DNA of 64,000 bases, from assembly GCA_004143945.1 (NCBI GenBank), contig SEHB01000007.1, positions 1 to 64,000 of the forward strand. The letters are read 5' to 3'. The notes under the pieces were generated by a model that was not told where the DNA came from, did not search any database, and worked only from the letters and a program-made list of their open reading frames with translations. Positions 9,350 to 54,358 of this stretch are shown one piece after another; position 1 is the stretch's first letter, and each line of letters starts with the position of its first letter. Source of the stretch: Lysobacteraceae bacterium. Its GTDB lineage: Bacteria > Pseudomonadota > Gammaproteobacteria > Xanthomonadales > Rhodanobacteraceae. A program made the translations under genes and the position numbers.

Positions 9350-10954
9350 ATGAAATGGATCGTCCCTTGCGTTGCGATCGCGCTCGCGTGCGTCGCGAAG
9401 CCGCTTCCGGCGCAGGTCGCCGCGCCGGTGCCGAAGTGGGCGCACGGCGGCTGTTTCGCGAGCTGGTGCCAGACCGGCTGGTACAGCTCGCCCGCGGTCG
9501 TCGACGTCGACGGCGACGGATCGCGCGAGGTGGTTGCAGGCAGCTATGACGTGGTCGCGCTCGATGGCGCGAGCGGCGCGCTCGAATGGCGCGCCGAGAG
9601 CGGCGGGCGCGTCTGGCCCGGCGTCGCGGTCGGCGACCTCGACGGCGACGGACTGCTCGAGATCGTCGCGGGCCGCAGCGGCGGCGAGGTCAGCGTGTAC
9701 CGCCTCGACGGCAGCCTGCGACCGGGATGGCCGGTCGCCGCGTTCGCGAGCGGCGAGGTGCGTTCGCTCGCGCTCGGCGACCTCGATCGCGACGGCCGCC
9801 TCGCGGTGGTCGCCGGTGTCGCGGCGAGCACCTCGGTCAACCAGGTGACCGTGCGCGCGGCGAATGGATCGCTGCGCGCGGGCTGGCCCGCGCGGCATGC
9901 GGGGGAGCCCGGGTACGGCGCCGGCATGTACAACCAGAACCTCGCGGTGGCCGACCTCGACGCGGACGGATTCGTCGACGTGCTCGCGCCGACCGACACC
10001 CACTACGTGACGGCGCTCGACCGCAACGGCGTGCAGTTGCGCGCGCATCCGATGTATGGCCAGAGCAGCGACGGCAGCAATCGCAAGACCTGGGCCGAGG
10101 TCGGCGTGCACGTCGACCAGGCGGCCGACCTTCGCGGTTATGCCGAATGCGGGATCGAGCATCGCCCGAACTTCGCGAGCGCCTCGCCCGCGATCGCCGA
10201 CGTGGACGGCGACGGCACGCGCGAGTTCGTGCTGCCCGGCAACGTCTACGACTGCGATGCGAGTCCGTACCAGAGCCTGTATTACGATGTCTGGCTGCTG
10301 CGAGCGGACCGCACGCGCTGGGCCGCGGCTGCATGGGACTGGACCGTGGTGCCGCCGCAGGGCGCGAGCGGCGCGCCGTTGTCGGAAGACTACGGCGTGA
10401 TCCAGAACATCGCCGCGAACGTCGTCGTGGCCGACCTCGACCGCGACGGTCGCGGCGAAATCCTGCTGCCGAGCTACGACGGCAAGCTGCATGCATGGTG
10501 GCTCGATCGCAGCGAGCATCACGCGTGGCCGTACGTGATCCCCGGCGCGGGATTCCACTTCGCGTCCGAGCCCGTGGTAGCCGACCTCGACAACGACGGT
10601 TTCGCCGAGGTGCTGTTCACGAGCTGGGGCCAGAACGGCAACGGCGAGTCCGGCCGGCTGCACGTGCTCAACCACCGCGGCGAGGCGCTGCACGTGCTCG
10701 CGTTGCCGGCCGCGCGCGGCGGCTCCTGGAGCGGCGGCCTCGCCGCGCCGACGCTGGATGACATCGATGGCGATGGCGAACTCGAACTCGTCGCGTTGAC
10801 GAGCGGCGCGGGCGTCGTCGCGTTCGACCTGCCCGGCACGCGCCATGCGCGCGTGCTCTGGGCGACCGGTCGCGGCAGCTACCTGCGCGCGGGCTTCGCC
10901 TCGAACGACCGCATCTTCATCGACGGCTTCGGCGCGCACGGCGCGGCGGAGTGA
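9350..10954 (+). CDS. Secreted FG-GAP/VCBS repeat protein
   Basis: The 534-residue product has a signal peptide (MKWIVPCVAIALACVAKPLPAQ) and about eight repeats carrying calcium-loop motifs: VDVDGDGSREVVAG, GDLDGDGLLEIVAG, GDLDRDGRLAVVAG, ADLDADGFVDVLAP, ADVDGDGTREFVLP, ADLDRDGRGEILLP, ADLDNDGFAEVLF and DDIDGDGELELVAL. This predicts a seven- or eight-bladed integrin-alpha-like beta-propeller outside the cytoplasm, of unknown ligand. The extreme C-terminus DRIFIDGFGAHGAAE carries the [IL]F-x-DGF motif shared with other secreted proteins in this window. TATAGT at 9315-9320 is a possible -10. The gene sits between thiE and rubredoxin, which are close neighbours in Xanthomonas relatives, so it may be an insertion. 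Confidence 0.85.
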   Translation: MKWIVPCVAIALACVAKPLPAQVAAPVPKWAHGGCFASWCQTGWYSSPAVVDVDGDGSREVVAGSYDVVALDGASGALEWRAESGGRVWPGVAVGDLDGDGLLEIVAGRSGGEVSVYRLDGSLRPGWPVAAFASGEVRSLALGDLDRDGRLAVVAGVAASTSVNQVTVRAANGSLRAGWPARHAGEPGYGAGMYNQNLAVADLDADGFVDVLAPTDTHYVTALDRNGVQLRAHPMYGQSSDGSNRKTWAEVGVHVDQAADLRGYAECGIEHRPNFASASPAIADVDGDGTREFVLPGNVYDCDASPYQSLYYDVWLLRADRTRWAAAAWDWTVVPPQGASGAPLSEDYGVIQNIAANVVVADLDRDGRGEILLPSYDGKLHAWWLDRSEHHAWPYVIPGAGFHFASEPVVADLDNDGFAEVLFTSWGQNGNGESGRLHVLNHRGEALHVLALPAARGGSWSGGLAAPTLDDIDGDGELELVALTSGAGVVAFDLPGTRHARVLWATGRGSYLRAGFASNDRIFIDGFGAHGAAE

Positions 10955-38492: not shown

Positions 38493-40880
38493 ATGGGCGG
38501 GAGATCGAATTCATGGCGCGCGAACGCAGCATGCGTGCGCGCGGCGCTGCGCTTCGCCGGCCTCGCGTTCGCTTTCGCATTCGCGGCGGCCAGTGGTGCG
38601 CAGGCGCAGGACTACATGGCGCGGCAGGTAATCACGGCGGTCGCCAGCGGCGAAGGCGCGCAGCATGGGCTGTTCGGCTGGGATGTCGCAATCGATGGCG
38701 ACCTGGCGGTCGCCTGTGATGCGCGGCTGGATGGATCGCCCGCGCGCGTGCGCACCTGGCGACGTTCGGGGCAGGCCTGGCAACGCCTGCCTGCGCATGA
38801 CGTCGTGCTCTACGGCGACAGCGGATGCCGGATCGCACTCGCCGATGGCACGCTCGCGATCACCCAGTACGGCTCCACCGCACCCTCGCGCGGGTACATC
38901 AACGTGTTCGCGTGGACGGACGAGGGGTGGGACCAGGAATACGGCGTATCGACGACCGCCGACTTCTACGATGCGATCGCGACCAGCGGCAGCATCGTGG
39001 CCGTCGGCGCGCCGTTGCACGACGGTGCAGCCGGTGACAACACCGGTCGCGTGCGCGTCCTGCGACGCTCCGGCAGCGGCAGCTGGACGTCGTCGTTCAT
39101 CAACCCGCCGACGGCGCAGGAAGACGCGTACTTCGGTCAGTCGGTCGCGATCGTGGCCGGCGCGATCGCGGTCGGCGCCCCGGCCATGGATGTCGACGAT
39201 GGCGGCACGCTGCGCGCTGACGCAGGCGCGGCCTATGTGTTCGAACTCACGATCGACACCTGGAACCTCGCGGCATCGCTGACCGAGCCCGGCGGCGATA
39301 TCGGGGCGGGGCACCGCTTCGGCAGTGCGGTCGCGATCAGCGGCCTCGATCCGAGCACGCCGGATCGCCTGCTGGTGAGCGCCCCGTCGAACGCGGACGT
39401 CGCGCATGCGGGCATCGTGCGCGCGTATGCACGCGCCGCCGGCAGCTGGACCGAGGCGTTCTCGTTCGGCCAGTCCGGTTCGCCCGTCGACGACCAGTTC
39501 GGCTGCTCGCTCGCGATGGACGGCGCGTGGGCGGTGATCGGCGCCTGCTCGAACAGCAGCGTCGCCGCGAACGCCGGCGCGCTGCGCGTCGCGCGCTTCA
39601 ACGACGACTTCGAGGGCGTCGCGTCCTGGTCGCAACGCACCGATCCGGGTGGCGTCGCGAACGACTACTTCGGCGGCCGCGTCGGCATCGATCGGGACGG
39701 CCCTGCCGTGATCGCCGGCAACCCGGCCGCCAACCTGCATGGCAACGCGTCCCAGGGCGTCGTGCTGACGAGCGTGGGCACGACCGGCGACGTGCCCCCG
39801 CTCGCGCGCAGCTTCGAACTCGGCCAGGGCCTCACCGGCGCGCGCGCATCGCAGTTCGCCGTCGACGGCGACGCGATCGCGATCGGCGCATCGGGCGAGG
39901 ATGTCGGCCTGCAGCAGCAGCGTGGCGCGGCCTACGTCTACCGTCGTGGCACCGGCGGTTACCTGTTCGAAGCTCGCGTGCTCGCCCCCGACGGCATGGC
40001 GGGGGACCAGTTCGGCGCGACGATCGCGCTGCAGGGCGACCGCTTGCTCGTCGGCGCACCCGGGCGTGCGAGCCAGGGCGAGCCGCAGGCCGGCGCGGTC
40101 TACGCGTTCCGGCGCGTTTCGGGGACCTGGACGCTCGAGGCGCAATGGGTGCCGGCCGATCCGGGTTACGAGACCACGTTCGGCTTCACGCTCGCGCTCG
40201 ACGGGTCGACCGCGATGGTCGGCGAATTCGGCGAGAACACCAGCGTCTTCGAACGCTCGACCGAGGGCACGTGGAGCCTCGTGCAGGCGCTGCCCTATCG
40301 CGCGTGGTCGCTCGCGATGCGCGGCGACCGCGCGTTCCTCGGCGACCCCAATGCCGCGGACGGCGTCGGCAGTGTCGCGTTCTATCGCCGTGAGAACGGA
40401 TGGTGGGAGCCGCAGGGCACGCTTGCGGGGACCACGGCGGACCAGGGCTTCGGCCGCGGCGTCGATGCGGATGGCGACGTCATCGCCGTCGCGAGTTCCG
40501 TCGCAGCGGTGCCGGTGCTGCTGTACCAGCGCTCCGGCGAGACCTGGTTGCCGTCGGCGAGCCTGCTGCCCGAGGACGTCACCGCCGACACGATCTGCTC
40601 GCGTGTCGCGCTGCGCGCGTCCACCTTGCTGCTCGGCTGCAACGAGCCCGGATACGAGGGCGCGGTCTACGTGCTCGAGAAGGCGTCCGGCGCCTGGAGC
40701 CAGGTGCAGAAGCTGACCCTGCCAAGCCCGGTCGAACTCGACGTGTTCGGCAACCCCCTCGCGATCGCACCGGGCGGCTGGCTGTTCGCGGGTTCGTTCG
40801 GTCGCGACCTGGACTTCATCGACCAGGGCGCGGTCTACGCCTTCGCGGGCGATCGGCTGTTCCGCGACGGTTTCGACTAG
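38493..40880 (+). CDS. Secreted FG-GAP (integrin-alpha-like) propeller protein with C-terminal LFRDGFD
   Basis: The 795-residue product has a hydrophobic export signal (FAGLAFAFAFAAASGAQAQ) and about ten FG-GAP-like repeats, each with a GxxFGxxxAxxGxxxxVGAP pattern, for example GLFGWDVAIDGDLAVAC, YFGQSVAIVAGAIAVGAP, HRFGSAVAIS, DQFGCSLAMDGAWAVIG, DQFGATIALQGDRLLVGAP and TFGFTLALDGSTAMVG. This predicts one or more extracellular beta-propellers. It ends YAFAGDRLFRDGFD, the same [IL]F-x-DGF tail as other secreted proteins in this window. The start is uncertain: ATG 38493, or GTG 38535, which would give a tidier signal peptide. Confidence 0.85.
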   Translation: MGGRSNSWRANAACVRAALRFAGLAFAFAFAAASGAQAQDYMARQVITAVASGEGAQHGLFGWDVAIDGDLAVACDARLDGSPARVRTWRRSGQAWQRLPAHDVVLYGDSGCRIALADGTLAITQYGSTAPSRGYINVFAWTDEGWDQEYGVSTTADFYDAIATSGSIVAVGAPLHDGAAGDNTGRVRVLRRSGSGSWTSSFINPPTAQEDAYFGQSVAIVAGAIAVGAPAMDVDDGGTLRADAGAAYVFELTIDTWNLAASLTEPGGDIGAGHRFGSAVAISGLDPSTPDRLLVSAPSNADVAHAGIVRAYARAAGSWTEAFSFGQSGSPVDDQFGCSLAMDGAWAVIGACSNSSVAANAGALRVARFNDDFEGVASWSQRTDPGGVANDYFGGRVGIDRDGPAVIAGNPAANLHGNASQGVVLTSVGTTGDVPPLARSFELGQGLTGARASQFAVDGDAIAIGASGEDVGLQQQRGAAYVYRRGTGGYLFEARVLAPDGMAGDQFGATIALQGDRLLVGAPGRASQGEPQAGAVYAFRRVSGTWTLEAQWVPADPGYETTFGFTLALDGSTAMVGEFGENTSVFERSTEGTWSLVQALPYRAWSLAMRGDRAFLGDPNAADGVGSVAFYRRENGWWEPQGTLAGTTADQGFGRGVDADGDVIAVASSVAAVPVLLYQRSGETWLPSASLLPEDVTADTICSRVALRASTLLLGCNEPGYEGAVYVLEKASGAWSQVQKLTLPSPVELDVFGNPLAIAPGGWLFAGSFGRDLDFIDQGAVYAFAGDRLFRDGFD

Positions 40881-43779: not shown

Positions 43780-44017
43780 CGTGATCTTTTTTTGTCACCG
43801 GCCTGAGTAGACTCGCGGCCCCAAAGATTGCCGTGGCTCCCATCGGGATCGCCGCATGCACGACAAGGCTTTGGCCGCGATATCGGGATTCGGGATATCT
43901 GCGCCGATCGGCGCGCGTGCCGCCTCTCGTGCCATCCATACGAATTCACGCATCGGAATGCGGACGGCGTTCGCGCCGTGGTCGGGACGAACTGAAGATT
44001 TCTCCGGGGAGGCTGCA

Positions 44018-47000
44018 ATGCCGTTGAACACGATCGCCGTACACGACTCGGCAAACCGCTGGCTCGCCCGCTGGCAGCGCCGCAGCCTGCTCATGCTTGC
44101 CCTGCTCATGTGCGGGCATGCCACCGCGGAAGGCACGCGCACGTTGCATCCGGCCGGCGCGACCGGCGAACGTGGCGTGATGGACGTCAGCGACTCGTCG
44201 TTCTTCGCGAACGTCGCGCGCGGCCGGCAGTTCCTGTACGTGTATGCGCGGGCGGGCGAATACATCCTGCTCGGCTCGCGCAACCGCAGCAACGGCGGCG
44301 ACGCTTTCGTGTACGACCCGCAGTCGTTCGGCACGCCCGGCGACGAGACCGTCCCCGGCACCGCCGACTTCACCTGCAGTTCGCAAGCCGGCCGCGGCAC
44401 GATCGCCGGACGCGCGGCCGAACTCGCGGGGCCCAACAGCGCCGACGGCACGGCCACCGTCACCGATGGCTTCACGCCGTGTTCGTACCTTGCGCCCGTG
44501 ACCGGCCTCTACGGCGTTCGCTTCACCGGCGCGACCAGCGGCGGCCAGACCAACACCGCGTCGATCGCGACGCCGCCGATCCTGTCCGGCAGCCTGGTGT
44601 CCGCCTGGGACGTGACGATCCGCGCGGGCGCGGATTCGCTCACCGACATCAACGGTCGCCTCTTCACCTACGCGTGGACGGTGTATCTGCAGAGCAACGG
44701 ACGCCGGCTCGACAACGACCTCTACTACGTGTCCAGCGACGGCTATCGCTATCGCCAGTCGCTGCGCGGCATCGACCCGAACCGCGCCGCGTTCTACGCC
44801 AATTCCAGCGGCTTCATCGACACCGACGGCGGTCCGCTGTATCGCGATATCCGGGGCAACAACGCCGCCGTGACCGCGGGACCGTCCATCGCCGCGGGCA
44901 TTACCGCACAACGCCCGCAGTACCCGATCTTCTTCAGCGACGTGTCGCCGTCAGGCGCCAACGCGAGCGAAGTCGACCGCGTGCTCACCGCCCTCGCGAT
45001 CCCGCTCGCGCCGTTGCCGCCGCAACTGGGCAGCCCGAGCTTCGTCGGCAACATCGGCGGCAACACCTCGACCGTCTCGAGCGGCGGCGTGTTCACGTTC
45101 ACGACGCTCAATACGCTCACCTACGAGATCGTCATCAGCCGTGACGGCATCGATTTCGATCCGGCGAACGTGCTCAACCGCGTGCTCACCGGCATCGCGC
45201 TGAGCGGCAGCCACACGGTCCTCTGGGACGGCCTCGACAACGATGGAAACGCGTTTCCCGTCGGCGACTACGAGTTCCGCATCGTCGGTCGCAACGGCGA
45301 GATCCATTTCCCGATGATCGACATCGAAGCCAACACGCGCGGTGGCCCGACCCTGACCAAGCTCAACGGCACGCTGCAGGAGGCGACGACCGTCTACTTC
45401 GATGATCGCGGCTACGCCGCTGCGAACGGAACCCTGATCGGGCAGCTCAACGGCCACCTCTGCGGCGCCGGCAGCCTGATCGCGCAGCCGGTGCCGAACC
45501 ACTCGCTGGTGGGCGTGGATTCGGCGGACGCCAACCTCGGCGGCAGCGGCAACTACTATCGTTCGTGGGGTGGGTCGGCGGACAACAACAACGACTGCAC
45601 CAACAACGCGACGCAATACTTCGCGACCGCGAAAGGACTCGACCTCTGGGCGCTGGAGAAGTCGGCCGTCACGGAACTGCCGATCGAGATCGTCGAGCCG
45701 ACCGTCGGCGTCGACGTGGGCACGATGGTCAGCGTCACGCCGGCCGTGCTGCCCGGCGACACCGCGTACGGCAGCTTCGTGTTCACCAACGCGGGCGACC
45801 AGATCGCCACCGGCGTCACCTACGGCGTGGCGCTCGGCAATTCGGCGCAGCCGGTTACCTGCCCGACCGCAGTGAATTTCACCCTCGTTCCCGCCGGCGT
45901 CGTCGCGACGTACAACCCGGCGCCCGCGTGCACGATCACCTTCACCGGCATGCCGGCCACGCTCGCGCCGGGTGAATCGCTGGCCTTCAACTTCGACTAC
46001 GTCGTGCTGCCCGCGAACCCGGGTCCGATTCCCGTCGCCACGACCATCACGGCGGCGAACGAGAACAACGATGTCGCGCCGAACACGGCCAACGCCGAGA
46101 CCGTGGTCGCGCGGCCGGTCATCAACGTCGCCAAGAGCGCGTCCCCGGCGCCGGGTACCGAAGTCGACGTCGGCGACACGATCACCTACACGCTGAGCGC
46201 GACCATCGGGAACGCTCCGTTGACCGCCACGCTGACGCTGACCGATACGCTCGGTGCCGGATTGGCCTTCGGAAGCGTGAGCAGCAGCCATCCCGCCTTC
46301 ACCTGCGGCGGAAACCTCACCTGCACGCTTCCGGCCGGCACCGCGACCGGGACCTACACGGTGGTCTACACCGCGACGGTCGAGCCGTCCGCGGTCGGCA
46401 GCGTCGCCAATAGCGTGGTGCCGAGCGGTGGAGGCAGCGACGACCCGCCGGGCTGCGCGCCCTGCAGCGTGGAGCATCCGCTCGTGCCGCCGCCGGCATT
46501 CCCGTTCTGCCCCGCTGCCGGTGATCCGGCGCAGGTGTTCAATGTCGTCAACGGCGTCCAGATCTACGGTTACACGCCGCCCGGCACGGCGCCCGATGTG
46601 CTGCTGCCGCTGGTGCCGGAGACGATCTCCGGCAACCTCAATGCGCTGATGCTCGACCCGGTGCGCAACCGCCTGCTGCTGATCCAGCGGTCGAGCGGCT
46701 CGGAATCCACGCTGTGGGCCTACGACGCCGCCAACGGCGGCTGGTACGTGGCATTCGGTCCGTTCGCGTCGCCGGACTTCCCGCGCGGCGGATTCAACGC
46801 GGCGGGCACTGGCTATCTGATCGGCGGCGGCACGAGTCCCGAAGTGTGGGAAGTCGTGTCCTCCTCGACGTTCGGTTACACCGTGGCCCAGATCGGCACG
46901 ATGAATTACGACAACGCGCCGACCGACACGGGCTCGGGCGACATCGCGTTCGACGGCAACGGCAGGGCATGGCTGGCAGTCGGCCAGGACATCTACCACC

Positions 47001-50000
47001 TCGACCTTGGTGGCAGCTCGCCGTTCACGGCCGTGCGCCAGACGCGGCCGCTGCTCGGTGGTTCGCCGAGCGCGATCGGCTGGGCCGGCATCGCGTTCGC
47101 GGCGGACGGCACGTTGATCCTTGCCAACAATGCACCGTCGCCGAGTGCCTACTACCAGTACGATCCGGCGACGGGCGTCATCGTGCATCGTGTCGACACC
47201 ACGGCCAATGCCGCGCGCGACCTCGCGTCCTGCGCGTTCCCGGTCCAGCTCGAGCCCGAGCTCTCGATCGTGAAGGTGCTGAGCACGGTGAACGGCGCCC
47301 CGTACCCGCCGCTGGCCGCCGTTTCACCCGGCGACGTCCTGACATATGCCATCACGATCACCAATTCGGGTGGCGCGGTTGCGACGCTGTTCGCCGGTGA
47401 CGTGGTCGAAACGGTTCCCGCCGACACCACGCACGTCGGCGGCGACAGCTTCACCTGCGCGGCCGCGACCGCCGGATCGTCGTGCGGCAACACCTCGGCG
47501 TTCAACCTCGCGGCCGGTGCCAGCAGCGAATTGACCTTCACGGTGCAAGTGAACCCGACGGTCGGTGGTGCGTCGATCGCGAATGCCGTGGCGATCCCGG
47601 GTGATGTCGACTGCGCCGTCGCGCCGAACGACTGCGGGGAAGTGACGCCGGTCGATCCATCGGTGACGCTGTCGAAGACGCTGCAATCGGGAGGACCGAC
47701 CGCCGAGCCCGGCGAGACGCTCACCTATGCGATCACGCTGAGCAATGGCACCGGTACGCCGGCGAGCAACTACGGCGTCACCGACGTGCTCGATCCGAAC
47801 GTGGCGTTCGTGTCGGCCTCCGACGGCGGCAATCATGCCGGCGGGACGGTGAGCTGGAGTGGCCTGACCGTGCCTGCGAACGGCAGCCTCGTGCTCACGG
47901 TGCAGGTGGTGGTCGCCGATCCGTTGCCCGAGGGCGTTTCGCAGATTGTGAACCTCGCCTACGAAACCGGCACGACGCCGCCGGGCTGTCCGCCCGCCGG
48001 CGCCCAGTGCGTCGTCACGCCGACCGCACCCGAGGTCGCACTCGTGAAGGCGCTCGCCGGCGAGAGCGGCAGCGTGGCGGGCGTCGCCGAGCCGGGCGAG
48101 CAGCTCAGCTACACGATCACGCTGAGCAACAGCGGCGGCAGCGATGCGATCGGCTACGGCGTCACCGACGTGCTCGACCCGAACGTCGCATTCGTCAGCG
48201 CCGACAACGGCGGTGCGCTCGTCGCCGGCAACGTCGAGTGGAGCGGCCTGGGCATTCCTTCGGGCGGCAACCTCGTGTTGACCGTCGTCGTCACGGTGGC
48301 CGATCCGCTGCCGAGTGGCGTCGCGCGGATCGCGAACCTCGCCTACGAAACCGGCACGACGCCCCCGGCGTGCCCGCCGATCGGGCCGCAGTGCGTGGTC
48401 GTGCCGACCGAGGCGGCAGTCACGATCACCAAGGCGCTTGCAGGCGAGAGCGGCGCGCGACCCGGCCAGGCCGAGGCAGGTGAACAACTGACCTGGACGA
48501 TCACGCTCGCGAACTCGGGTGGCACGGACGCGACGAACGTCGGCGTCACCGATGCGCTCGACTCGAACACGAGCTTCGTCTCCGCGAGCAACGGCGGAGC
48601 GCATGCAGCAAGCGTCGTGACCTGGAGCGGCCTGGGCGTGCCCGCGGGCGGCAGTCTCGTGCTGACCGTGGTCGCGACGGTGGACGATCCGATTCCCGAC
48701 GGGGTCACGCAGGTCGCGAACCTCGCCTACGAGACCGGCACCACGCCGCCCGCCTGCCCGCCGAGCGGCTCGCAGTGCGTCGTCGTGCCGACCGCGCCGG
48801 ACGTCACGATCGCGAAGGCGGCGAGCGCGCCGGTGCCGACCGGCAATCCAGACGAGTACGCGATCACGTATGTCGTCACCGTCGACAACCGCGGTGGCAG
48901 CACCGGCAACTACGATCTCGCCGACACGCTGAGCTTCAACGGCGCGACGGTCACCGCGATCAGCGCACCGGTGCATGCGACGACGACGGGAGACATCCAG
49001 GACGGTGCGTTGGGCAGCTTCAACCCGCCCGCCGGCGGATCGATCGTCACCAACGAGTCGATCGGCAGCGGCGGCAGCGAGCGCTGGACCTACACCGTGA
49101 CCTATGCGGTCGCCGACGGCGACCTTGCCTCCGACTGTTCGATTCCGAATGGCGGCCTGCGCAACCGTGCCGAGCTCGGCGGCGACTCGGCCGGCGCGCC
49201 GCCCGCGGAAACCTGCAGCGGCGCGCCGAGCGTCGCCATCGTGAAGACCGCGACGGCGCCGGCGCCGACCGGCAACCCGAACGAGTTCACGCTGACCTAC
49301 ACGATCGACATCGCGAACACGGGCTCGCTCGCGGGCGTCTACGACCTCGCCGACACGTTCGTATTCAACGGCGCCAATGTCACCGCAGTCAGCACGCCGA
49401 TGTACAACTCGACCAGCGACGTGCAAGACGGCACGCCCGGCGCGTTCGCGCCACCGAGTGGCGGCACGATCGTGACGGGCGAGGGCATCAGCGCAGGTGG
49501 CGCGGAGAGCTGGAGCTACACCGTGACCTACACGGTGACCGATGCCGGCACCGCGCAGGACTGCGCGGACCCCGCCGGAGGCTTGCGCAACTCCGCGCAA
49601 CTCGGCGGCTCGCTCGCCGGCGAATCGAACACCTGCACCGGCGCGCCTGCCGTGGTGATCGGCAAGAGCGTCAGTGGCCCGGGTGCGACCGGCAATCCGG
49701 GCGAGTACACGCTCGACTACCTCGTCACGGTGCAGAACGACGGCAGCCTCGTCGGCAACTACGACCTCGTCGACACGTTCGCGTTCAGTGGCGTCACGGT
49801 GACATCGGTGAGCGCGATCATCCACGGCGGCGCCGATCCGCTCGCGGGCGTGCTCGGAACGCTGGGCGCGAACGGCGGCGCGATCGTCGGCGACGAGACG
49901 ATCGCCGCAGGCGCGAGCGAAACGTATGCGTACACGGTCACGTTCACGCTGGACGATCTCGCGGCCGTCGGCACCTGCGCCGATGGCGGCGGACTCGTGA

Positions 50001-51763
50001 ACGCGGCCGCGCTCGGCGGCAGCTCGACCGGCCAGGTCGGTACCTGCAGTGACATGCCCGATCTCGTCATCACCAAGAGCGCCGGCACGCCGGCGCCGAC
50101 CGGTGTGCCGAACCAGTACACGCTCGCCTACAGCGTGCGCGTGGACAATGCGGGTGCAGCCGCAGGCAGCTACGACCTCGCGGATGCGTTCGACTTCGCG
50201 GGTGCGACCATCGACGCGGTCAGCGCGGTTGCGCATGTCGGTCCCGATCCGCTCGGCGGCACGCTCGGCACGCTGACGCCGACGGGCGGCACGATCGTCA
50301 GCGGCGAGACGCTCGCGGCAGGCAGCGGCGAGAGCTTCGTCTACGCCGTGACCTTCACCCTCACCGATCCCGTCGCCGCGGCCGATTGCGCGAATCCGAA
50401 CGGCGGCCTGCGCAATGCGGCCACGCTCGGCGGCAGCGCGGTCGGAGACTCGCAGACCTGCACGTCGATGCCGGCCGTCTCGATCCTGAAGGCGCTCGCG
50501 GGCGAGAACGGAGCGCATCCCGGGGTCGCCGAACCCGGCGAGCAGTTGACCTACACGATCACGCTGAGCAATACGGGCGACAGCGACGCGACCGGCTACG
50601 GCGTCACCGACCAGCTCGACCCGAATACCGCGTTCGTGTCGGCCGACAATGGTGGCGCGCACGCCGCAGGATTCGTCGAGTGGGACGGACTCACGGTTCC
50701 CGCGAACGGCACGTTGACCTTGACCGTCGTCGTCGTGGTCATCGATCCATTGCCGGTCGGAGTCACCCAGGTCGCCAACGTTGCCTACGAGACCGGCACG
50801 ACACCGCCCGCGTGTCCGCCGAGCGGGCCACAGTGCGTGGTGATTCCCGTCGAAGCAGCGGTCACGCTCTCGAAGTCGGTCGTCGATGCGGGTGGCAACG
50901 GCGAGGCCGAAGCAGGCGAACTGCTGACCTACACGATCACTCTGGTCAATGCGGGTGGCAGCGACGCGACCGGCATCGGCGTGACCGACCCGCTGGACCC
51001 GAACACGACATTCGTGTCGGCCGACCATGGCGGCCTCCACGCTGCGGGGACGGTGAGCTGGAGCGATCTCCTCGTTCCGGCGGGGGGCACCCTGCAGCTG
51101 ACGGTCGTCGTCGCAGTCGCCGATCCGTTGCCGGCCGGCGTGACGCATATCGGCAACATGGCCTACGAAACCGGCACGTCGCCACCCGATTGCGACGCGC
51201 AGCCGCGTCCGGCGAACTGCACCGATATCCCGGTGGCCGGGCTGCCGCACCTGATGATCACCAAGACGGCCGACAGCGCGACGCTCTCGCCCGGCGGCCT
51301 CGTGGTCTACACGATCAGCGTCGGCAACGATGGCGATGCGGCCGCGACCGGCGTGGTGATCAGTGATCCACTGCCCGAAGGCATCGTCGCGTTTGCGTGG
51401 AGCTGCTCGGCGAGCGGCGGCGTGAGCTGCCCGAATGCGGCCGGCACCGGCGCGATCGACGAGACGGTCGCGGCGTTCCCGGCCGGCGGCCTGCTCGTCT
51501 ACAGCGTGACCGCGACCTTGTCGGATGATCCGCCCGGAAGCGTGGTGAACACCGCCACGGTCACGCCCGGAGGCGATGCGACCTGCGGGCCGGACAATAC
51601 GGCACCCCCGTGCCCGGCCACCGTGATCGGCACGGTCGTTCCGGTGGGCGGCGGCGAAGTGCAACCGGTGCCGACCACGAGCGAATGGGCACTGCTGCTG
51701 ATGGCACTGATGATCGGCGGCTGGGCAGGCGTCGCAGCGCACCGTCGGGAACACCGGCGCTGA
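44018..51763 (+). CDS. Giant secreted DUF11-repeat surface protein with IPTL-CTERM-like tail
   Basis: The 2581-residue product has a signal peptide (RRSLLMLALLMCGHATA), a mature start EGTRTLHPAG, a FlgD-like Ig segment near 360-425 (LWDGLDNDGNAFPVGDYEFRI), a DUF11-like domain near 703-825, a propeller-like region near 825-1075 (LLLIQRSSGSESTLWAYD...), and then tandem DUF11 repeats. Repeats of type A (GEQLxYTITLSNxGGxDAxGYGVTD, ending AYETGTTPPACPP) and type B (PTGNPxEYxxxYxVxVxNxGS...YDLADTF) run A-A-A-B-B-B-B-A-A, plus one last domain. The tail VPTTSEWALLLMALMIGG followed by HRREHRR is an IPTL-CTERM-type sorting signal, with VPTT in place of IPTL. GGGGAGG six bases before ATG 44018 decides the start. 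Adhesin or surface-layer function is inferred. Confidence 0.88.
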   Translation: MPLNTIAVHDSANRWLARWQRRSLLMLALLMCGHATAEGTRTLHPAGATGERGVMDVSDSSFFANVARGRQFLYVYARAGEYILLGSRNRSNGGDAFVYDPQSFGTPGDETVPGTADFTCSSQAGRGTIAGRAAELAGPNSADGTATVTDGFTPCSYLAPVTGLYGVRFTGATSGGQTNTASIATPPILSGSLVSAWDVTIRAGADSLTDINGRLFTYAWTVYLQSNGRRLDNDLYYVSSDGYRYRQSLRGIDPNRAAFYANSSGFIDTDGGPLYRDIRGNNAAVTAGPSIAAGITAQRPQYPIFFSDVSPSGANASEVDRVLTALAIPLAPLPPQLGSPSFVGNIGGNTSTVSSGGVFTFTTLNTLTYEIVISRDGIDFDPANVLNRVLTGIALSGSHTVLWDGLDNDGNAFPVGDYEFRIVGRNGEIHFPMIDIEANTRGGPTLTKLNGTLQEATTVYFDDRGYAAANGTLIGQLNGHLCGAGSLIAQPVPNHSLVGVDSADANLGGSGNYYRSWGGSADNNNDCTNNATQYFATAKGLDLWALEKSAVTELPIEIVEPTVGVDVGTMVSVTPAVLPGDTAYGSFVFTNAGDQIATGVTYGVALGNSAQPVTCPTAVNFTLVPAGVVATYNPAPACTITFTGMPATLAPGESLAFNFDYVVLPANPGPIPVATTITAANENNDVAPNTANAETVVARPVINVAKSASPAPGTEVDVGDTITYTLSATIGNAPLTATLTLTDTLGAGLAFGSVSSSHPAFTCGGNLTCTLPAGTATGTYTVVYTATVEPSAVGSVANSVVPSGGGSDDPPGCAPCSVEHPLVPPPAFPFCPAAGDPAQVFNVVNGVQIYGYTPPGTAPDVLLPLVPETISGNLNALMLDPVRNRLLLIQRSSGSESTLWAYDAANGGWYVAFGPFASPDFPRGGFNAAGTGYLIGGGTSPEVWEVVSSSTFGYTVAQIGTMNYDNAPTDTGSGDIAFDGNGRAWLAVGQDIYHLDLGGSSPFTAVRQTRPLLGGSPSAIGWAGIAFAADGTLILANNAPSPSAYYQYDPATGVIVHRVDTTANAARDLASCAFPVQLEPELSIVKVLSTVNGAPYPPLAAVSPGDVLTYAITITNSGGAVATLFAGDVVETVPADTTHVGGDSFTCAAATAGSSCGNTSAFNLAAGASSELTFTVQVNPTVGGASIANAVAIPGDVDCAVAPNDCGEVTPVDPSVTLSKTLQSGGPTAEPGETLTYAITLSNGTGTPASNYGVTDVLDPNVAFVSASDGGNHAGGTVSWSGLTVPANGSLVLTVQVVVADPLPEGVSQIVNLAYETGTTPPGCPPAGAQCVVTPTAPEVALVKALAGESGSVAGVAEPGEQLSYTITLSNSGGSDAIGYGVTDVLDPNVAFVSADNGGALVAGNVEWSGLGIPSGGNLVLTVVVTVADPLPSGVARIANLAYETGTTPPACPPIGPQCVVVPTEAAVTITKALAGESGARPGQAEAGEQLTWTITLANSGGTDATNVGVTDALDSNTSFVSASNGGAHAASVVTWSGLGVPAGGSLVLTVVATVDDPIPDGVTQVANLAYETGTTPPACPPSGSQCVVVPTAPDVTIAKAASAPVPTGNPDEYAITYVVTVDNRGGSTGNYDLADTLSFNGATVTAISAPVHATTTGDIQDGALGSFNPPAGGSIVTNESIGSGGSERWTYTVTYAVADGDLASDCSIPNGGLRNRAELGGDSAGAPPAETCSGAPSVAIVKTATAPAPTGNPNEFTLTYTIDIANTGSLAGVYDLADTFVFNGANVTAVSTPMYNSTSDVQDGTPGAFAPPSGGTIVTGEGISAGGAESWSYTVTYTVTDAGTAQDCADPAGGLRNSAQLGGSLAGESNTCTGAPAVVIGKSVSGPGATGNPGEYTLDYLVTVQNDGSLVGNYDLVDTFAFSGVTVTSVSAIIHGGADPLAGVLGTLGANGGAIVGDETIAAGASETYAYTVTFTLDDLAAVGTCADGGGLVNAAALGGSSTGQVGTCSDMPDLVITKSAGTPAPTGVPNQYTLAYSVRVDNAGAAAGSYDLADAFDFAGATIDAVSAVAHVGPDPLGGTLGTLTPTGGTIVSGETLAAGSGESFVYAVTFTLTDPVAAADCANPNGGLRNAATLGGSAVGDSQTCTSMPAVSILKALAGENGAHPGVAEPGEQLTYTITLSNTGDSDATGYGVTDQLDPNTAFVSADNGGAHAAGFVEWDGLTVPANGTLTLTVVVVVIDPLPVGVTQVANVAYETGTTPPACPPSGPQCVVIPVEAAVTLSKSVVDAGGNGEAEAGELLTYTITLVNAGGSDATGIGVTDPLDPNTTFVSADHGGLHAAGTVSWSDLLVPAGGTLQLTVVVAVADPLPAGVTHIGNMAYETGTSPPDCDAQPRPANCTDIPVAGLPHLMITKTADSATLSPGGLVVYTISVGNDGDAAATGVVISDPLPEGIVAFAWSCSASGGVSCPNAAGTGAIDETVAAFPAGGLLVYSVTATLSDDPPGSVVNTATVTPGGDATCGPDNTAPPCPATVIGTVVPVGGGEVQPVPTTSEWALLLMALMIGGWAGVAAHRREHRR

Positions 51764-51841: not shown

Positions 51842-53887
51842 CTACGGCTGGATCTCGATGCGGTTCACGGCGCCCGCGAGGTCGCGATTCAACGTGATCC
51901 ACAATTCGCCGGCGGCCGCACGCGGCGACGGGAAGTAGTCGACATCCTGCACGAGCGTCGCGCCGCCGAGCTTCAGCGTCGCCGGCAGGCCCGCGCTCCA
52001 TCCGCGCACGACCAGCAACGGGTGTCGCAGCGTTCCGGTGCCGATCGCGATGTTCGCGTCGAGGCGGTTCGTCGATGCATCGAAGGTCAATGCGCCGCGC
52101 ACGCGATCCCAGCCGGCGGGTGCGTAGGTGTACGGCGTTGCATCGGCGACGCCTGCCGGACCCTGTGTCGCAACGGCGCCGATCGTCGCCGTGAGCGCGA
52201 GCGACTGCAGCGCGTCGACCTCGGCGACGCGCGCGCCGACCGGATCGGACGAGTGCGTGCCGAGCACGATCCAGAGTGAATAGCTCTTCTTCGGCCAGCC
52301 GGGTGCGACCGGATCGCCGGGCAGCGCGAACGCACCGCCGCCGTACCAGGCGTTGCCGCGCACGCGGTATTGCTGCTGGCCGAGGAAACCGAAGTTCGTG
52401 CCCCAGGCAAGGCGTGCGTCCTGCGTCGCACCGCCGTACAGGTTGTAGTTGATCGACTGGTAGGGCCAGTTGTAGTCGCAGGGCATCAGGTAGTTGCCGG
52501 GACAGCCGCTCGTCGTCGCGCTGCTCGTCATCCACAGATCCTGGCCCCAGTAACCGCCCGCATCCTGCTGCGCGATCGTCTGCGTCTGCACGAGGCCCAT
52601 CGTCGCGTCGACGCTGCCGGTCCAGAGTTTCACGAACGGGATCGTGTTGGCCTGGTTCCAGTTCCATGCGCTGCCGAGCGTGACCGGGCTCGTCGTGCTC
52701 GCGAAGCGGTAATAGTCGCCCCAGGCGACCCCTGCGATCTGCGCGCGCGTCGCGTCGCTGGCGGCGCCGTCGATGCGCAACTGGCCGTAGGGCGCGCGTG
52801 AATCGTCGGCCAGGCGGTCGACCGGAACGCCGGAGAGGTCGTAGGTGATCGACCACAGCGGATCATCGCGCCCGCTCGAGACGACCCAGTCGATCGTGAC
52901 CGGCAGGTTGTACTGCTGCGCGGGCGCCGCCGTCGTGCAATAGCGTGGATAGGCCTGCGTGAAGCGCAGGATCGCGTGATGGCGGCCTTCGAACACGCGC
53001 TCGAAACTGCCGCCGGTGAAATGGCCGAGGCTGGAACTGTCGCCGCCGCCGGTGCAGTGGCTCTCGTCGCCCGCGTGCGAAACGACGTAGCCGAAGCCGC
53101 CGAAGCCATCGGTTGTCGCGCGCACCACGCGCGTCGCGCCGCCCGCCTCGTAGCGGAACTCGCGCAACTCGCCGCCGCGGCTGCCGCCGTTGCCGGCGCC
53201 GCCGTCGTTGTGCGCGAGCACGGCGACGCGCGGCCTGCCGGTTGCATCGCGCCAGCCGAAGCGATCGCCGGTCAGGCCGTCGATCGCGACGTCGCGTTCG
53301 ATCACGAGCCCTCCGGGCGGCGGCGGCCCATCGCCCTCGAAGCCGTCCGCGAAGATCGCATCACCACCCGCGCCGAACAGCGCGATGTCGTCGAGATAGA
53401 CGGTCGGCTGCGTCGCCGCGGCATCACTCTGGATGTCGATGCGGTCGAATGCGCCCGACCACGAAAGGGGTGGCTGCGCGAGCATGACGGTCGCTTCGCG
53501 CCAGGTCGCTGCGCTCGGACCTCCGGCGAGATATGCGGACAGCGCTGCCTGCGCGACCACTTCGCCCTCATTCTGCAGGATGAGCTGCAGCTGCTGGCCG
53601 CCGCCGCTGCCGCCGTGCACCCAGAGCTTGAGGGTCGGCCATGTGGTAGCGGACAGGCCGCCAGATGCGTGATGGAAGGACACCGCGTTGTACGCGTTGC
53701 CGGACAACGCGATCGAATAGGTCCCCGCATGCACCGGCGTCGTGTTGGCGAAGTCGCTGCCGCCGCCGTAGGACCAGTCCTCGAAGCCCGGGCCGAGCGC
53801 ATCCTCATAGACGACCTGCTGGGCCGGCGCCGCCGCGGCCTGCGCGAGGAAGAAGAGCGCGCACGCGGCGCGTGGGATGCGACTCAT
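51842..53887 (-). CDS. Secreted two-domain protein with internal IFADGFE motif
   Basis: The 681-residue product has a signal peptide (ALFFLAQAAAAPAQ) and an N-terminal beta-sandwich-like domain (about 20-175; VYEDALGPGFEDWSYGG and VYLDDIALFG) resembling carbohydrate-binding modules of secreted hydrolases. IFADGFE follows at about 178-184, then a proline linker (GDGPPPPGG) and a large C-terminal region of about 490 residues rich in Trp and Tyr (LWSITYDLSG, WGDYYRFAS, YNWPYQSINYNLYGG). I do not recognise the C-terminal domain; it could be glycan-active. The tag-like motif is normally at the C-terminus elsewhere in the window, which suggests a fusion. GGAGTGATCCG precedes the ATG. Confidence 0.7.
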   Translation of the reverse strand: MSRIPRAACALFFLAQAAAAPAQQVVYEDALGPGFEDWSYGGGSDFANTTPVHAGTYSIALSGNAYNAVSFHHASGGLSATTWPTLKLWVHGGSGGGQQLQLILQNEGEVVAQAALSAYLAGGPSAATWREATVMLAQPPLSWSGAFDRIDIQSDAAATQPTVYLDDIALFGAGGDAIFADGFEGDGPPPPGGLVIERDVAIDGLTGDRFGWRDATGRPRVAVLAHNDGGAGNGGSRGGELREFRYEAGGATRVVRATTDGFGGFGYVVSHAGDESHCTGGGDSSSLGHFTGGSFERVFEGRHHAILRFTQAYPRYCTTAAPAQQYNLPVTIDWVVSSGRDDPLWSITYDLSGVPVDRLADDSRAPYGQLRIDGAASDATRAQIAGVAWGDYYRFASTTSPVTLGSAWNWNQANTIPFVKLWTGSVDATMGLVQTQTIAQQDAGGYWGQDLWMTSSATTSGCPGNYLMPCDYNWPYQSINYNLYGGATQDARLAWGTNFGFLGQQQYRVRGNAWYGGGAFALPGDPVAPGWPKKSYSLWIVLGTHSSDPVGARVAEVDALQSLALTATIGAVATQGPAGVADATPYTYAPAGWDRVRGALTFDASTNRLDANIAIGTGTLRHPLLVVRGWSAGLPATLKLGGATLVQDVDYFPSPRAAAGELWITLNRDLAGAVNRIEIQP

Positions 53888-54046: not shown

Positions 54047-54358
54047 TCATTCGAAGCCGTCGGCGAAGATCACGTCGCTCGCGCTGCAACTGCTCCCTGC
54101 CGGCGTCGCGACGGCATCGATGGCATATCCGCCGCCCTCGGCGGATTTTCTCGATGGCGTCAGCCTCGCCTGCAGCTCGAATCCGCCGTTCGCCTGCACG
54201 GCTGCAGCTGCGTGCGCCCGGCCCTGCAATTCGAACCGGACCGGTGCGTCGTCGGCCTGCACGACGGGGCAGGCGAACAGGAACAGCAGTGTCGCCATGG
54301 TGGAACTCGACGCGCGCCGCGGACGAATCAGCGGCCGTCGTGGGATCGGCGCATCCAT
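54047..54358 (-). CDS. Small secreted protein ending in IFADGFE
   Basis: The 103-residue product ends SCSASDVIFADGFE. It has a hydrophobic stretch (MATLLFLFACPVVQA) that works as a signal peptide from Met21, or as a longer signal with the basic N-terminus. GGAGGCGAGTGAG before ATG 54358 supports the long start. The mature part is only about 65 residues and beta-like (VRFELQGRAHAAAAVQANGGFELQARL). Its ATG lies one base past the TGA of the S74 gene, so the two form an operon. The last 20 coding bases are nearly identical to the DNA encoding the motif in the neighbouring 681-residue protein. The function is unknown; it is almost a carrier for the tag. Confidence 0.65.
   Translation of the reverse strand: MDAPIPRRPLIRPRRASSSTMATLLFLFACPVVQADDAPVRFELQGRAHAAAAVQANGGFELQARLTPSRKSAEGGGYAIDAVATPAGSSCSASDVIFADGFE

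Follow-up and report, generated by a model that had tools for sequence, protein, structure and literature searches.

Four genes for exported proteins in the window (the whole 64-kb stretch of DNA that was analysed) carry copies of one short motif. The first encodes an FG-GAP repeat or beta-propeller protein (PF13517 and PF01839; 9350..10954, + strand) with the tag DRIFIDGFG six residues before its end (10907..10933, core IFIDGFG at 10913-10933). The second is an FG-GAP_2 repeat protein (PF14312; 38493..40880, + strand), of which DRLFRDGFD forms the last residues ahead of the stop codon (40851..40877, core 40857-40877). On the minus strand, a small protein of 103 amino acids from an unknown family (54047..54358) likewise has DVIFADGFE as its last residues ahead of the stop codon (54050..54076, core 54050-54070), and a two-domain protein without a Pfam match (51842..53887) holds an internal copy, DAIFADGFE, at a domain boundary and followed by a GDGPPPPGG linker (53336..53362, core 53336-53356). 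A preliminary description of the window had reported an [IL]F-x-DGF motif in these four proteins, and translation and a motif scan recovered every copy where it had been placed. A fifth tagged gene, also for an exported protein, begins at the end of the window (G000:C29:63401-68182), and its VFRDGFD lies outside, 17 residues from the C-terminus. The window also encodes a large DUF11-repeat protein with a terminal IPTL-CTERM domain (43856-51763, + strand), yet the exosortase family PF09721 has no match in the genome.

Six-frame pattern counts in the genome of origin (3.67 Mb), with the reversed pattern as control, gave 132 matches for [ILVMF]F.[DN]GF[DEG] against 1 for the control, and 29 against 0 when a stop codon followed directly after the seventh residue. 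These numbers exclude a chance origin of the motif. Each of the 29 stop-abutting matches lies at the end of an open frame, and the encoded proteins are unrelated and mostly export-like. The form first described for the motif captured a real core but is too short, as an Asp precedes [ILV]F by two residues in 40 of the 45 C-terminal copies. The full motif has nine residues, D-x-[IVL]-F-x-[DN]-G-F-[DE], with the consensus D-[R/A/V/L]-[I/V/L]-F-[A/R/x]-[D/N]-G-F-[D/E] by position. An alignment of 52 unrelated carriers has the D, F, G and F of the tag as its near-invariant end columns and, consistent with the earlier statement that the carriers are otherwise unrelated, these different folds have only the terminal D..F..GF in common. 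None of the Pfam or NCBIfam hits listed for tagged proteins matches the tag tail, and a literature search for the motif strings matched only author names or similar letter runs, so that the earlier remark that no signal of this form is known by name held for Pfam, NCBIfam and the literature searched. That the tag is real and previously undescribed is a solid result.

Per-gene statistics were taken from an 864-kb sample of the same genome with 681 called genes, while pattern counts are genome-wide. The motif was detected in 58 of these genes. It had been proposed that the tag idea would fail if the motif were no commoner at the C-termini of exported proteins than in cytoplasmic proteins or at internal positions; a Sec or Tat signal peptide is visible in at least 55 of the 58 carriers, including a Tat-type DUF1501 protein. 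A simple rule caught 41 of these signal peptides and the remaining 17 genes were read by eye, most of them being positive and one Tat. The three genes without confirmation are a chance match in a membrane glycosyltransferase, a gene call in which the N-terminus is missing, and one unclear case. A tagged delta-60-like gene (L132:7849-8238 on G000:C1) lacks the N-terminal part and the signal peptide in the gene call, and is possibly a broken gene or an assembly error.

The carriers match the GSDH, FG-GAP, subtilase, P-proprotein, Kelch, LVIVD, delta-60 and PHB depolymerase families, as well as M14, DUF1501, DUF1800 and choice-of-anchor Q, J and B; the last three belong to a group named after the swapping of surface anchors between taxa. 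For exported proteins that lack the tag, the matches are to M23 peptidases, cytochromes c, TonB receptors, HlyD, DsbA, SLT and LysM. The tagged set is one of surface or extracellular families, and the untagged exported set one of periplasmic or outer-membrane families.

Forty-five of the 58 copies end 0-18 residues from the C-terminus, and the residues after the tag (0-18, mostly polar) contain neither a hydrophobic (transmembrane) helix nor a basic tail. Apart from the glycosyltransferase match, the remaining copies are internal at domain or linker boundaries, and two lie directly behind the signal peptide (L119:15416-17164 and L128:8753-11059, a DUF1800 protein and another). A free C-terminus is therefore not required. 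The C-terminal placement given in the preliminary description holds for most copies but not for these internal and post-signal-peptide ones, and because of them “recognition tag” is a better name than “C-terminal tail”. Three proteins (L116, L117 and L118 on G000:C17, with ends near 658.3, 675.6 and 690.4 kb) differ in their N-terminal parts and have the same C-terminal domain of about 200 residues (..LAESFLGTS...GIGGVFPDGSTF...) right behind the tag.

Comparison of homologous proteins showed that the tag is added as a module. DUF1501 homologues in tag-positive genomes carry a linker and the tag at their end (DAIFANGFDAA, DAIFKSGFESS, DRIFANGFQ, DAIFRSGFEPA and DHLFDNGFEAA), whereas tag-negative relatives stop directly after the conserved core; untagged paralogues are present in tag-positive genomes too. 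In the structure model of the DUF1501 protein from the genome of origin, the pLDDT is about 90 in the core, which extends to residue 450, and falls below 50 in residues 454-463, which correspond to the tag. The tag is predicted to be disordered or flexible in this one model.

Across the class (274 genomes), the genome of origin was the only one with DGF tag counts above background. Within the order, the counts are strongly bimodal (200 genomes, mostly with 0-4 or about 15-130 matches), and the tag is confined to the order Lysobacterales/Xanthomonadales. Of the sampled genera in the same family, four are tag-positive and all others negative; in a second family (f2), one of many genera is positive. 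In a public collection, the named carriers are species of Dokdonella and metagenome-assembled genomes of Lysobacterales or Rhodanobacteraceae.

A co-distributed gene family, for which the preliminary description had suggested a search, was found in the form of a second type II secretion system (T2SS-A). Searches for the secretin GspD detected two kinds, type A and type B, of which type B is near-universal. Type A GspD is present in all 21 tag-positive genomes first sampled and in none of the 13 tag-negative genomes sampled in the same family. It forms one fully supported clade apart from type B in the GspD tree, with a long branch at its base formed by a distant Xcs-like copy from a genome of the Xanthomonadaceae. 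With tag-positive genomes defined by at least 8 matches, and with the R/S variant (see below) counted as tag, 90 of the 200 genomes have both tag and type A GspD, 86 neither, 16 the tag only and 8 type A GspD only. The corresponding numbers are 55, 77, 4 and 4 for the genomes that are at least 95% complete, and 32, 31, 3 and 3 by genus (Fisher p = 5e-30 by genome and 8e-13 by genus, without correction for relatedness).

Type A GspD was thus identified in 90 of 106 tag-positive genomes, with fragments, mostly cut at a contig edge, in 3 of the 16 tag-only genomes (G438, G389 and G394). Most other tag-only genomes are incomplete. The discordant cases include three f178 genomes (G334, G348 and G368) that lack type A GspD in spite of 9-23 matches, and four A-positive genomes (G335, G353, G360 and G454) with only 2-7 matches. 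Unlike its sister genera, a nearly closed genome of 4.7 Mb (G290; f179, g249) has no tag and no GspD match. The presence of a T2SS in general was rejected as the determinant, since type B is nearly universal whatever the tag status. The link to T2SS-A is a strong correlation only: the genomes are not phylogenetically independent, and another co-distributed family has not been excluded genome-wide.

GspC-A consists of a T2SSC (HR) domain and a C-terminal PDZ domain related in sequence to those of OutC, PulC and EpsC, and a homologue is encoded at every type A locus examined. The gspC gene of T2SS-A in the genome of origin lies at C3:88317-89195, and the PDZ domain of its product covers about residues 200-293. 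At the T2SS-A locus of the genome of origin only gspC, D, E and F were found, and pseudopilin genes were not located. One tagged gene of this genome is encoded divergent from gspC (C3:89360-91024). Over the 21 tag-positive loci, the number of tagged genes near T2SS-A is at background, with no clustering, and adjacency was therefore not used as evidence. A literature search on two T2SSs in this order found only papers on Xps and Xcs of Xanthomonas.

Genus g244 has type A GspD and lacks the DGF tag. If T2SS-A reads a tag, these genomes should have some tag. The choice-of-anchor Q proteins of g244 end in DSIFNDRFEQP, DEVFQDRFEQP, DLIFTDRFEGS, TIFSDRFESGNAW and similar, which corresponds to a variant tag D-x-[IVL]-F-x-D-R-F-E. 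Counts of F.[DN][R/S]F[DE] are high in most of g244 and in the neighbouring g282, reaching 92 per genome; genomes that lack T2SS-A have low counts. As the DRF variant was first found by inspection and counted afterwards, the count confirms the variant genome-wide. Only a few near-unique columns of the g244 GspC PDZ domain accompany the change from G to R; they are confounded by phylogeny, and we do not claim a compensatory change. Three genomes of f174 and f175 (G275, G276 and G287) have about 35 R/S-pattern matches beside the DGF tag, and in the matches listed for G275 the Gly is replaced by Ser ([DN]SF), which makes a second natural variant.

The suggestion that the motif is a sorting or recognition tag is supported by the export signals, the surface-type carriers and the co-distributed T2SS-A. 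The tag marks proteins of extracellular type in part of the Lysobacterales and is probably tied to the second T2SS, with the localisation being inferred. We consider it rather probable, with clear room for doubt, that T2SS-A reads the tag as a short linear sorting signal, with the GspC PDZ domain as the likeliest reader. The D-x-[IVL]-F-x-[DN]-[G/R/S]-F-[DE] signal would lie in a flexible terminus or linker; tagged proteins would first cross the inner membrane by Sec or Tat, would then fold in the periplasm, and would be bound in the folded state by T2SS-A, a canonical system, for passage through the outer membrane. The tag is found on carriers of both the Sec and the Tat route, so it acts after inner-membrane export. 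Transport of tagged proteins by T2SS-A is inferred, without experimental data on export itself or on its loss in a gsp mutant. A role of the C-terminal PDZ domain of GspC-A as tag receptor, although the likeliest, is speculative, as direct binding has not been shown. Vibrio and Dickeya provide examples of T2SS substrates that depend on the PDZ domain (PMC12369372). Secretion of VesB in Vibrio cholerae needs the PDZ domain of EpsC, although the authors note that there is no linear universal signal (PMC12369372), and disordered substrate segments act as composite secretion signals in Dickeya and Pectobacterium (PMC7949064). These precedents make it plausible that a flexible, position-tolerant motif is bound by the GspC PDZ domain. 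The published view that T2SS substrates have no common linear signal (PMC7949064, PMC12369372) counts against reading the tag as a T2SS signal. The most far-reaching version, a first shared linear T2SS signal that has nine residues, tolerates different positions, occurs at more than 100 sites per genome, is read by the GspC PDZ domain and drifted from DGF to DRF together with its machine in one genus, remains tentative, and we would not quite give it even chances.

The tag could instead dock proteins to the surface (or to a matrix or vesicles) after secretion, by way of an outer-surface receptor, so far unidentified, that was inherited along with T2SS-A. Many carriers belong to choice-of-anchor families, which are surface-anchored in other taxa, and the motif is found at both termini as well as between domains, as expected of a docking motif. 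However, no receptor family was identified, and T2SS-A explains the co-distribution without any receptor; we regard docking as unlikely, though it deserves to be kept in mind. Much less support remains for a cleavable signal of a sortase-like enzyme, such as an exosortase, a rhombosortase or a clan CD peptidase that would cut at [DN]|GF. The strict [DN]-G-F core, the variable leaving tails of 0-18 residues and a C-terminal signal on many unrelated proteins, as in CTERM systems, would fit cleavage, whereas the lack of a transmembrane helix or basic tail does not, and cleavage at a C-terminus would be meaningless for the copies that follow the signal peptide or stand between domains. As a partner, exosortase (PF09721) was rejected, being found in 14 of 27 tag-bearing and 3 of 27 tag-negative genomes and absent from the other 13 tag-bearing ones, among them the genome of origin (G000), G284 and G416. 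Rhombosortase was rejected too: it passes the curated cut-off in only 2 of 41 genomes (G165 and G324), both of them tag-negative. We therefore consider cleavage very improbable. A functionless or purely structural element, such as a small hairpin cap at the terminus that spread through gene duplication or recombination, is the least credible explanation, because, even if [DN]G favours a beta-turn and three proteins have a further repeated domain in common behind the tag, the carrier folds are unrelated with the motif alone common to them, the tag is predicted to be disordered, and its near absence outside exported proteins, its bimodal distribution and the parallel variant in one genus need selection.

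How T2SSs choose their cargo is an open question, and recent papers deny a common linear signal. A sorting signal read by T2SS-A would be a candidate linear signal with a named machine, in an order of mostly harmless soil and water bacteria, and perhaps a simple “send me out” label, a kind of signal that the T2SS was thought not to use. It makes the cargo question directly testable, with a natural variant of the motif, tag-plus and tag-minus homologues, and a second T2SS without tag as internal control providing built-in comparisons. The tag also offers an easy means of annotating the extracellular proteome across the order.

Among known systems, the tag resembles the CTERM signals (PEP-CTERM with exosortase, GlyGly-CTERM with rhombosortase, MYXO-CTERM with myxosortase, and IPTL-CTERM) in being short, C-terminal and shared by unrelated exported proteins, from dozens to more than 100 in a genome, in being lineage-specific, and in its many-to-one relation with a co-distributed machine. 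Unlike these, it has no transmembrane helix or basic tail and no cleavage enzyme was found for it, it also occurs at the N-terminus or between domains, and its distribution follows a secretion machine, not a protease. The C-terminal domains of T9SS cargo are similar in being a C-terminal signal for the outer-membrane passage of unrelated proteins; in Bacteroidota these are complete folded domains with a length of about 80 residues, whereas the tag has 9 residues and is found in Gammaproteobacteria. Another parallel is substrate recognition by the T2SS itself (the EpsC PDZ domain with VesB, and the OutC PDZ domain with loop 3 of PelI), where the substrates, like the tag carriers, are exported, folded and extracellular, have varied folds and arrive by both Sec and Tat, where flexible segments are implicated, and where the GspC PDZ domain is needed by some substrates (PMC12369372, PMC7949064). 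The T2SS determinants known so far are structural, multisite and protein-specific without a common linear sequence, whereas the tag is one linear motif at more than 100 sites in a single genome.
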